Assembly (NCBI GenBank): GCA_016864895.1
Contig: CP046107.1
Location: 248,001 to 312,000, forward strand
Length of the DNA stretch: 64,000 nt
DNA from: Neisseriaceae bacterium
Lineage (GTDB): Bacteria > Pseudomonadota > Gammaproteobacteria > Burkholderiales > Neisseriaceae
Reading direction: 5' to 3'
The notes under the pieces are model-generated. The model made no database searches. It saw nothing but the letters and a program-made list of their open reading frames with translations, and was not told the origin of the DNA. This document shows, in pieces, positions 47,763-53,831 of this stretch. Position 1 is the first letter of the stretch. The number at the start of each line of letters is the position of its first letter. A program made the position numbers and the translations under genes.

Positions 47763-48791
47763 ATGAATAGAAAAATGAAAAAGTACTTATTTTATTTGTT
47801 ATGGTTGGTAGCAGGGTGTACTTCTGATTATCAAATAGAAACAGAACAAAAACAGGTTAAATTGACGCCTATACAGGATGATGTTTGTCCTGATATCAAT
47901 TGCTTCAACAATAAAATGATTAGTAAAGGAGTTGCAACACAATCACAATTAGAATACTTTTTTAACCGAGTTAATTATAAAGACAGCATTATAAGAGTAA
48001 TGAATAAACCAGGGACATCAAATCCATGGTATATTTTTAAGAAAAATAATGTTTCAAGTATAACAATTCGACAAGGTATTAATTTTTATAATAAAAATAA
48101 ATTAGTGATTAATACTGTATCGAAAAAAACAGGGGTACCACCTGAATATATCTTAGCTATCTTAGGAATGGAAACACGTTATGGTATGATGATGGGGCAT
48201 GAGAACGTTGCAGATTCATTATATACTTTAGCCTTTTATTATCCAAGAAGAGCGCGTTTGTTTCAAAAAGAACTGGAAGAGTTTTTCTTGATGAGTCAAG
48301 AAGCGAATCGAGATCCCTTCACATATAAAGGTAGTTTTGCTGGAGCTATGGGTTACCCACAATTTATGCCTTCTAGCTATCGTAAATGGGCAGTCAGTTA
48401 TTCTGGGAATGATTTCCCTGATATATGGCACAAAGAGGAAGATGCAATTGCTTCTATCGGTAACTATCTTCAACAACATGGATGGCAAAGAGGAGAAGGT
48501 GTTTATTATCCAGTATCTCTTAATATCAATCCTCAATTACAAACAATTATTACTGAAGAAACCAGTTTAAAATACAGTGTTGGTGACTTAAAATCCAAAG
48601 GAGTTAATTTCTTTAACAAATTGCCGGATAATTTAAAAGTTGTTCTATTTAAGTTAGAAACTTCTCCAGGTAGTGATAGTTATTTTGTTGGTTTAAATAA
48701 TTTTTATACTATCTGGAAATATAATAACAGTCATTTATATGTAATGGCAATTGAACAAATCGCTCAAGGTATTCGCAAAGGTATCTATTAA
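47763..48791 (+). CDS. mltB: Membrane-bound lytic murein transglycosylase B
   Basis: Lipoprotein, 342 aa, that cleaves peptidoglycan glycan strands with formation of 1,6-anhydro ends. Signal peptide with lipobox VAGC (Cys19). MltB signatures: ILAILGMETRYGMMMG near residue 135, with the catalytic Glu, GSFAGAMGYPQFMPSSYRKWAV near 195, DIWHKEEDAIASIGNYLQQHGWQ, and FYTIWKYNNSHLYVMAIEQ at the end. An ATG at 47775 is an alternative start. The stop overlaps the dnaX start by one base. Confidence 0.93.
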   Translation: MNRKMKKYLFYLLWLVAGCTSDYQIETEQKQVKLTPIQDDVCPDINCFNNKMISKGVATQSQLEYFFNRVNYKDSIIRVMNKPGTSNPWYIFKKNNVSSITIRQGINFYNKNKLVINTVSKKTGVPPEYILAILGMETRYGMMMGHENVADSLYTLAFYYPRRARLFQKELEEFFLMSQEANRDPFTYKGSFAGAMGYPQFMPSSYRKWAVSYSGNDFPDIWHKEEDAIASIGNYLQQHGWQRGEGVYYPVSLNINPQLQTIITEETSLKYSVGDLKSKGVNFFNKLPDNLKVVLFKLETSPGSDSYFVGLNNFYTIWKYNNSHLYVMAIEQIAQGIRKGIY

Positions 48792-50455
48792 TGGCTTACC
48801 AAGTATTAGCTAGAAAGTTTCGTCCTAAAAAATTTGTAGATTTAGTTGGACAAGAACATGTTACACAGACACTATTAAATTCTGTCCAACAATCTCGATT
48901 GCATCATGCTTATTTACTGACCGGAACTAGAGGGGTTGGTAAAACAACTATTGCACGAATTTTGGCTAAAAGTTTAAATTGTGATAACCCTGTTAATGGT
49001 GAACCATGTGGTCAATGTGATGCTTGCATTTGTATTGATGAAGGACGATTTGTTGATTTATTAGAAATAGATGCAGCCTCTAATACGGGAATTGATAATA
49101 TTCGAGAAGTTTTAGAGAATGCTCAATATATGCCTACTGTCGGTAAATTTAAAGTTTATATCATTGATGAAGTACATATGCTCTCAAAAAGTGCTTTTAA
49201 TGCAATGCTAAAAACATTAGAGGAACCTCCCCCTCATGTTAAGTTCATTTTAGCAACTACTGATCCACATAAAGTTCCGATTACTATTCTAAGTCGTTGT
49301 TTACAATTTGTGTTAAAAAATCTAAATTTGGATCAAATTTTCGATTACTTAAAATATGTTTTAAGTGAAGAAAACATTGCATATGAAGAACCTAGTCTTT
49401 ATTTAATTGCAAAAGCTGCTAATGGATCCATGCGGGATGCTCTAAGTTTATTGGATCAATCAATAGCACTGGCAAATCATCAACTAACTACAGAGGTAGT
49501 ACAAAAAATGTTGGGTGTGGTTGATCAAGATTTTTTGTATGATATTTTCTTAGCATTGAATGCAGACAATAAAACAGAACTCTATACAAAAATTAATCAA
49601 TTGTTATATCAATCTGTGGGATTCAGTGCCCTTTTGGATGAGATGGCGTTAATCTTAAAGGATCTTGCGACTGCCAAATTGTTTTCCTTAGATTTACATC
49701 CTGAAAATGAAAAATTTAGCATACTAGCTAATGTTTTATCAGATGAAGAAATTCAAATTTACTATCAAACAATTATTAATGGTAAAAAAGATCAGGTGAT
49801 TGCACCAGATGAATATACTGGTTTCTTGATGACCATTATGAGGATATTATCATTTAGACCTTATTTTTTTAAAGATAAAAGTCAAAATATTGCTACAATA
49901 TCAGATAACGATCGTTTAAAAAAAAAAATAAATTATGAGAATAATGATTTAATAAAAAAAACTGTCCCAAAACAAGCTATATTAAATCAATCATTTGATG
50001 AAATTTCTCAAGAAGTCAAAAAAAATCACGTTAATAATCATTTAACTAGTAATAATATTGTCATTAGTGTAGATGATTGGTATAGGTATATACAAAAAGT
50101 TAATAAGAAAATTGGCACTTATATAATTTTAACGAAACAACTAGCATTAGTTGGAACAAATAATCAAGGTGTTATTTGTGCTATACAAAATGAAAATGAT
50201 TTTGGTAGAGAGATATTGATTGCAGGGAAAAAAAATATTGAAAAAACTTTTATGAATTTATTTAATCTTCAAGTAACATGGCAACCATGGACTGATAATT
50301 TAATCCCATACCACTCTCTAAAAAAAATACATGATTCTGAAATGGAAAAAAAAGGTTTAGAATATTTACATTCAGACAAGGTAGCAAATAAATTGAAAGA
50401 ATTATTTAAAGGTGAATGGGATGCTCAAAGCATCCGATTTAAAAATATTGATTAA
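48791..50455 (+). CDS. dnaX: DNA polymerase III subunits tau/gamma
   Basis: Clamp-loader ATPase, 554 aa (E. coli tau 643). Walker A TGTRGVGKTTIARILAKSL near residue 45, a zinc-binding CGQCDACICI, Walker B YIIDEVHMLSKSAFNAMLKTLEEPP near 120, and SRC in LSRCLQF. Domains I-III end near residue 370. A polar linker follows with K-rich stretches, then the tau-specific C-terminal domain (ISVDDWYRYIQKVNKKIGTY onward). Codons 376-380 lie in a run of 11 A (49918-49928). Losing one A gives an immediate TAA and gaining one gives TGA three codons later, so slippage would yield a gamma-like form of about 380 aa. Cotranscribed with ybaB and recR. Confidence 0.95.
   Translation: MAYQVLARKFRPKKFVDLVGQEHVTQTLLNSVQQSRLHHAYLLTGTRGVGKTTIARILAKSLNCDNPVNGEPCGQCDACICIDEGRFVDLLEIDAASNTGIDNIREVLENAQYMPTVGKFKVYIIDEVHMLSKSAFNAMLKTLEEPPPHVKFILATTDPHKVPITILSRCLQFVLKNLNLDQIFDYLKYVLSEENIAYEEPSLYLIAKAANGSMRDALSLLDQSIALANHQLTTEVVQKMLGVVDQDFLYDIFLALNADNKTELYTKINQLLYQSVGFSALLDEMALILKDLATAKLFSLDLHPENEKFSILANVLSDEEIQIYYQTIINGKKDQVIAPDEYTGFLMTIMRILSFRPYFFKDKSQNIATISDNDRLKKKINYENNDLIKKTVPKQAILNQSFDEISQEVKKNHVNNHLTSNNIVISVDDWYRYIQKVNKKIGTYIILTKQLALVGTNNQGVICAIQNENDFGREILIAGKKNIEKTFMNLFNLQVTWQPWTDNLIPYHSLKKIHDSEMEKKGLEYLHSDKVANKLKELFKGEWDAQSIRFKNID
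49918..49928 (+). promoter_or_regulatory. A11 slippage tract in dnaX
   Basis: Eleven consecutive A residues reading TTA AAA AAA AAA ATA in frame, just after the clamp-loader core. Stops lie directly in both shifted frames. Two further A8 runs occur in the same linker (around 49954-49961 and 50018-50025). Confidence 0.6.
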
Positions 50456-53438: not shown

Positions 53439-53831
53439 ATGAGAAATTTATTAAAAGTAATGGCTATGTCAATGGCATTTTTTACAGTTTCCAATATCCA
53501 AGCAGAAGGAATTGAAGATTTCCTAGAAAATCTACAAAAAGAACTTCAAAAACAGTCCGGTGGTCCTCAACAAGCACAATCTGCGGGAGTCATTGAAGAT
53601 TTCTTAGAAAATCTACAAAAAGAGCTTCAAAAACAGTCCGGTGGTCCTCAACAAGCACAATCTGCAGGAGTCATTGAAGATTTCTTAGAAAATCTACAAA
53701 AAGAGCTTCAAAAACAGTCCGGTGGTCCTCAACAAGCACAATCTGCAGGGATCACTGAAGATTTATTAGACAATCTACAAAGAGAACTTCAAAAGCAGTC
53801 TGGTGGTTCTCAATCAGCACAGTCCTCTTAA
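53439..53831 (+). CDS. Exported protein of four 27-residue tandem repeats
   Basis: Not recognised. Length 130 aa. A Sec signal peptide (residues 1-22, cleavage after SNIQA) is followed by four repeat units and nothing else: residues 25-51, 52-78, 79-105 and 106-130. Each unit begins with an amphipathic helix, IEDFLENLQKELQKQ, followed by a flexible SGG-containing Gln/Ala/Ser-rich linker. Units 1-3 are identical in protein, and the last is diverged and two residues shorter. Strong TGGAGGAA ribosome site, own promoter and own terminator, so it is a well-expressed single-gene unit. Could be a periplasmic or secreted helical-bundle, adhesive or lipid-binding peptide; function unknown. Confidence 0.85.
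   Translation: MRNLLKVMAMSMAFFTVSNIQAEGIEDFLENLQKELQKQSGGPQQAQSAGVIEDFLENLQKELQKQSGGPQQAQSAGVIEDFLENLQKELQKQSGGPQQAQSAGITEDLLDNLQRELQKQSGGSQSAQSS
53511..53828 (+). repeat. 81-bp tandem repeats, four units
   Basis: Units at 53511-53591, 53592-53672, 53673-53753 and 53754-53828. Units 1 to 3 differ by only a few silent bases, so the array expanded recently or is kept uniform by recombination. Unit 4 carries several changes and lacks the last six bases. Confidence 0.93.

Follow-up and report, generated by a model that had tools for sequence, protein, structure and literature searches.

The dnaX gene of a Neisseriaceae bacterium, located in a 64,000-nucleotide stretch of its genome (contig CP046107.1, positions 248,001 to 312,000; hereafter the window), contains a run of eleven A's (A11) directly behind the clamp-loader core. 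We consider it probable (roughly 0.7) that this tract has been selected as a programmed slippage site, which would yield a predicted gamma-like subunit beside tau. Since the tract sits where related bacteria shift frame, one gene would probably supply the clamp loader with a long subunit as well as a short one. In the mechanism we propose, RNA polymerase would add or drop A's while copying the tract in a fraction of the transcripts. The mRNAs with 11+3n A's would then encode full-length tau, and those with other numbers of A's would reach a stop within 0–3 codons; their product would be a gamma-like subunit, 379–382 aa long, consisting of the clamp-loader core without the tau C-terminus. The genome is probably that of Neisseriaceae bacterium HaMa, symbiont of the louse Hoplopleura acanthopus, for which 1,607,498 bp and 33.4% GC were reported (PMC9376444).

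The dnaX gene and its A11 tract

The window ORF was assigned to DnaX by both Pfam and NCBIfam. In particular, TIGR02397, which covers the N-terminal core of the DnaX (gamma/tau) family, matched residues 3–352 with 440 bits (cut-off 250), and domain III (PF12169) ended at residue 354, where these domain matches place the approximate end of the clamp-loader core. Positions 49915–49931 read TTTAAAAAAAAAAATAA, with exactly eleven A's, and the location just behind the core given in a preliminary description of this DNA was exact (Table 1).

We then derived the products of slipped transcripts in silico. The tract as it stands (A11) leaves tau open to 554 aa. With one A lost (A10) the product would end at an immediate TAA after 379 aa (...DRLKKK), and with one A gained (A12) it would end at a TGA past three codons, after 382 aa (...RLKKKNKL), which bears out the size of about 380 aa proposed before; A13 and A9 would give 380 and 381 aa, respectively. 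The sense strand of the dnaX coding region carries a tract longer than the nine A's of the Thermus type, with tau in frame 0 and nearby stops in both other frames (554, 379 and 382 aa).

Table 1. Features of dnaX and its A11 tract in the window (positions are those of the window).
Feature	Position	Strand	Basis
dnaX, full-length tau frame, 554 aa	48791..50455	+	ORF; TIGR02397 440 bits, PF13177, PF22608, PF12169
Part common to tau and the predicted gamma-like subunit (ATPase, clamp-loader core domains I–III, short tail)	48791..49928	+	Domain matches; congener identity
Poorly conserved linker, residues 358–424, holding the kept A11	49862..50062	+	Pairwise alignment with congener
A11, candidate slippery tract, codons 376–380 (TTA AAA AAA AAA ATA)	49918..49928	+	Sequence; length and phase unchanged in congener (G001)
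TAA, stop after −1 A or +2 A (379–380 aa products)	49929..49931	+	In-silico products; TAG there in congener
TGA, stop after +1 A, −2 A or −1 ribosomal shift (381–382 aa)	49936..49938	+	In-silico products; TAA five codons past the tract in congener
Tau-only C-terminal region, residues 425–554	50063..50452	+	Pairwise alignment with congener

The gene was compared with that of Neisseriaceae bacterium PsAf (G001), found as a symbiont in the louse Polyplax serrata; the two species provide one comparison. DnaX identity was 87% in the core (residues 1–357), 34% in the linker (358–424) and 66% in the C-terminus (425–554). Within this linker, PsAf reads TCA AAA AAA AAA ATA GTT: the tract is again eleven A's in unchanged phase, and the flanking codons differ (TTA to TCA before the tract and AAT to GTT after it). 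The shifted frames of PsAf end at an immediate TAG and at a TAA five codons on (products of 558, 378 and 383 aa with tau first), so that the immediate stop met on losing one A is present in both species and spelled differently. Tract and stops of the Thermus type are conserved in this one congener compared: the run, its phase and both stops, which were to be checked in relatives for synonymous interruption or loss, persist in a linker that has changed two-thirds of its residues.

As a control, we followed other coding A runs of the window in their PsAf orthologues. Only 2 of 15 A8 runs were kept at a length of at least eight, the single A9 fell to five and the single A10 to six, and the dnaX A11 stayed at eleven. 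Within the dnaX linker itself, PsAf has not kept the A8 runs found at codons 388 and 410.

Recoding signals of dnaX in the Neisseriaceae and beyond

We read dnaX in 78 Neisseriaceae genomes and 8 others of the order. Genus g10 was taken as Neisseria from its Rfam and Recode entries, and 40 of its 45 dnaX genes contained A_AAA_AAG in frame at codons 381–395, with a −1 stop 1–13 codons further on and, at 30 of the 40 sites, a Shine-Dalgarno-like 4-mer upstream. The Rfam element neisseria_FSE (RF01843) scored 71.4 bits on one locus (L137) and 29.1 bits, below the gathering cut-off, on another (L023), and Neisseria dnaX is catalogued as a −1 frameshift in GeneTack and Recode-2 (PMC3711429). In 7 of the 40 Neisseria-type genes (e.g. 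L139 and L135), inverted cores of the DNA uptake sequence (GTCTGAA...TTCAGAC) were found at most 93 nt behind the frameshift site, and because they follow it so closely the uptake repeat may act as a stimulatory stem-loop.

A different arrangement was found in genus g5 (L005–L010, e.g. L007 from 1501). Frame 0 ended with GAC CCA AAA TAA in 6 out of 6 readable species, one of them with the variant GAC CCA AAA TCA TAA. The canonical heptamer C_CCA_AAA was combined with a strong 3' hairpin (−14.5 to −25.1 kcal/mol in 60 nt), and tau was open in the −1 frame to 587–761 aa in all six species. This is the inverse dnaX organisation, in which a −1 ribosomal shift is predicted to be needed for tau. Such genes, with gamma in frame 0 and tau obtained by recoding, are known (PMC3711429, PMC5009743); the window gene is the opposite, with tau in frame 0. 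In a tree of GyrB and the DnaX core, g5 was sister to the louse symbionts (100/99), a placement to be read with caution given the long AT-rich branch. With GyrB alone, the g1+g5 grouping was weak (74/77).

Two further genera (G004 and G019, loci L015 and L019) had an A9 at codon 381. Stops in both shifted frames would end the +1 and −1 nt products at 385 and 393 aa, and this A9 is possibly another slippage site. Genera g3, g6, g7 and g9 had mostly no recoding signal at dnaX. A frame break near codon 360 of the G035 gene (L032) was set aside as a recoding case; it lacks a slippery sequence and we therefore attribute it to a sequencing error or a local lesion.

The same place in the gene carries a poly-A tract in a distant group. 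In nearly every member of the SUP05/Thioglobus clade (Gammaproteobacteria), the DnaX core was directly followed by an A9 (by an A10 in two cases), and both shifted frames were closed by stops, with predicted products of 361–384 aa (L051, L061, L064, L067–L070, L072–L075, L077, L079–L084, L086, L088, L089, L096 and L098). One PS1-clade genome (L076) had an A12 in the inverse organisation, where tau (531 aa) would be reached by losing one A. A literature search pairing Thioglobus with dnaX found nothing. This convergent case supports the view that poly-A at this place of dnaX may be a recurrent device.

The comparison as a whole backs a programmed-slippage reading of the A11, through PsAf and through the other frameshift signals found at the same place in Neisseria and in the sister genus. 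The parallel drawn at first with Thermus and E. coli needs adjusting: the Thermus-type logic is shared, but the closest recoding relatives are the Neisseriaceae themselves.

Proposed route of slippage and the weight of chance

We favour transcriptional slippage, as in Thermus, as the way in which the A11 would work. In Thermus thermophilus, dnaX has an A9 with stops in both frames and gamma arises by transcriptional slippage (Larsen et al. 2000, as summarised in PMC1088944 and PMC5009743). The main rival is a −1 ribosomal frameshift on A_AAA_AAA within the tract, at a site descended from the Neisseria type, which we regard as unlikely. In both species the A11 does contain two in-frame A_AAA_AAA heptamers, followed by a −1 stop after 3–6 codons. 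Neisseria dnaX shifts on A_AAA_AAG at this position, and A_AAA_AAA itself is prone to shifting, although in E. coli it is weaker in this respect than A_AAA_AAG (PMC5009743). However, the tract offers A_AAA_AAA registers only, with A_AAA_AAG absent from it. Both species also lack, unlike Neisseria and the sister genus, a Shine-Dalgarno-like (GGAG-like) element about 10 nt upstream of the A11 and a stable hairpin behind it: folding z values were −1.3 and −1.0 in the window and +1.8 and +1.1 in PsAf, nothing beyond shuffles. No Rfam frameshift element (RF01843 in Neisseria) matched the louse-symbiont dnaX site. Moreover, an A7 would be enough for a −1 shift and a +1-frame stop is not needed for it, yet both the eleven A's and that stop are kept, and these are features that serve transcriptional slippage. 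It is the combination of these features with the missing 3' structure, Rfam element and upstream motif that makes us prefer the transcriptional route. Baranov et al. caution that slippage may be suppressed in some AT-rich organisms (PMC1088944). The two routes give nearly identical products and could operate jointly on the A11.

Alternatively, the A11 could be a functionless by-product of AT bias in a lysine-rich linker, with any slipped product being noise. AAA makes up 82% of the lysine codons, lysine-rich linkers in a 32% GC genome generate A tracts unaided, and the dnaX linker contains several A8 runs. Synonymous shuffling of the window proteins gave a mean of 1.28 expected tracts of at least eleven A's against 1 observed, and in a 121-kb coding sample of PsAf 0.65 were expected against 1 observed. 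Given its peptide, an A11 is thus not improbable, and what argues for a programmed site is therefore its conservation and context. It is on these that the by-product reading fares poorly, and we hold it to be rather improbable: the A8 runs of the linker and the compared A9 and A10 coding tracts elsewhere were not kept, dnaX alone reached eleven A's among the eight KKK sites of the window, stops stand in both shifted frames, and recoding signals occur at this place of dnaX across the family. The DNA of the tract could also have been retained through weak selection on the peptide KKKI.

The stops had initially been taken as a sign of selection. They are present, but their weight alone is less than was implied. 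Among 456 coding runs of at least six A's (window and one congener contig), 12.5% met a stop in the −1 nt frame no more than 3 nt on, and in 2.0% the +1 nt frame was closed as well, at most 9 nt on; if 15 nt is allowed in each frame, the proportion with both stops rises to 16%. At 2.0% by the strict limits and 16% by the loose one, nearby stops alone are suggestive and not decisive.

We also searched the complete window genome (a 1.607-Mb single contig of 1,607,491 bases) by pattern for A/T tracts. It contained exact A9 111 times, A10 18 times and at least eleven A's 10 times; the corresponding numbers in PsAf were 76, 9 and 4. In each of the two genomes dnaX holds the one A/T tract of at least eleven within a recognisable conserved gene. 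The remaining nine tracts of at least eleven A's in the window genome were in open segments of at most 107 aa, apart from one at the very 5' end of a dGTPase-like ORF. The latter, a T11 (L046), was rejected as a second coding tract, as it precedes the GTG at which, judging by the sequence, the gene likely starts. A PsAf tract (L034) was likewise rejected as a coding case: it falls in a 146-aa open segment of doubtful status, near an apparent reverse-transcriptase remnant, and is absent from the window genome. Among tracts of at least ten, that of dnaX was the only coding one common to both genomes; a second shared tract (L183/L179) is preceded by a GC-rich inverted repeat and resembles a terminator.

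Other repeats were recorded on the way. An A10 at 2177–2186 of the window covers codons 2–5 of a 788-aa 3-hydroxyacyl-CoA-dehydrogenase-like ORF and is not conserved, since PsAf has no A run longer than six at the orthologous position. Three apparently non-coding A/T tracts of 28–30 bases (L033, L035 and L043, near 41.6, 216.8 and 788.6 kb of G000) are possible contingency tracts or assembly artefacts. Finally, a 130-aa ORF at 53439–53831 of the window consists mostly of a unit of about 27 aa repeated in tandem (IEDFLENLQKELQKQSGGPQQAQSAG).

Phase variation at homopolymers is common among Neisseriaceae and the window genome has apparently intergenic A tracts of 28–30, but a contingency function, in which replication slippage at the A11 would toggle tau in a fraction of cells as in Neisseria surface genes, is barely credible, because the tract is tau-open in both genomes, assembled independently, and because heritable tau loss should be lethal, tau being essential in E. 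coli.

Known dnaX systems and significance

The programmed site that we propose resembles several known ones. With Thermus thermophilus it shares a single tau ORF, an unbroken sense-strand A tract, close stops in both frames and truncated gamma-like products, here predicted. It differs in tract length (A9 in Thermus), in the unrelated phylum, in that slippage is predicted from sequence in our case, and in the position of the tract, which is seven-eighths through the gene in Thermus and directly behind the core here, at codon 376 of 554. With Neisseria it shares the family, the place in the gene and a shift site of poly-A, and in both tau is read in frame 0 while gamma comes, or here would come, from the shift. 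Of the Neisseria features, A_AAA_AAG, the 3' stem-loop and an upstream Shine-Dalgarno-like element are missing in the louse symbionts, which have instead the A11 and a +1-frame stop. In Blochmannia, another AT-rich insect symbiont, dnaX is among the genes frameshifted at poly-A tracts for which slippage has been invoked (PMC3017870). There, however, the tract belongs to the part found only in tau, and slippage would restore tau from out-of-frame DNA, whereas here the gene is in frame as it stands and slippage would yield gamma.

The proposed site would be a further case of a known kind of dnaX recoding, and its main interest is the replacement of one device by another within one family. Slippage at the A11 would have taken over, at the same place of dnaX, from the ribosomal frameshift signals of other Neisseriaceae. 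We give even odds to the idea that gamma/tau production flipped both mechanism and polarity within one clade, with g5 relying on a −1 ribosomal shift for tau and the louse symbionts making tau directly and gamma by slippage at the A11. If so, the gamma/tau pair would be what selection keeps, and the recoding device would be replaceable.

Why bacteria make gamma beside tau has long been debated. If our reading is right, the family would be a natural experiment on this question, with three or four different recoding devices at one place of dnaX in close relatives and with no device seen in genera such as g6; the turnover of devices would argue for selection on the short subunit itself. It would also mean that an AT-rich symbiont with a shrinking genome has retained a programmed signal in the form of a slippage tract, in a genome where A11 is otherwise all but absent from recognisable genes.
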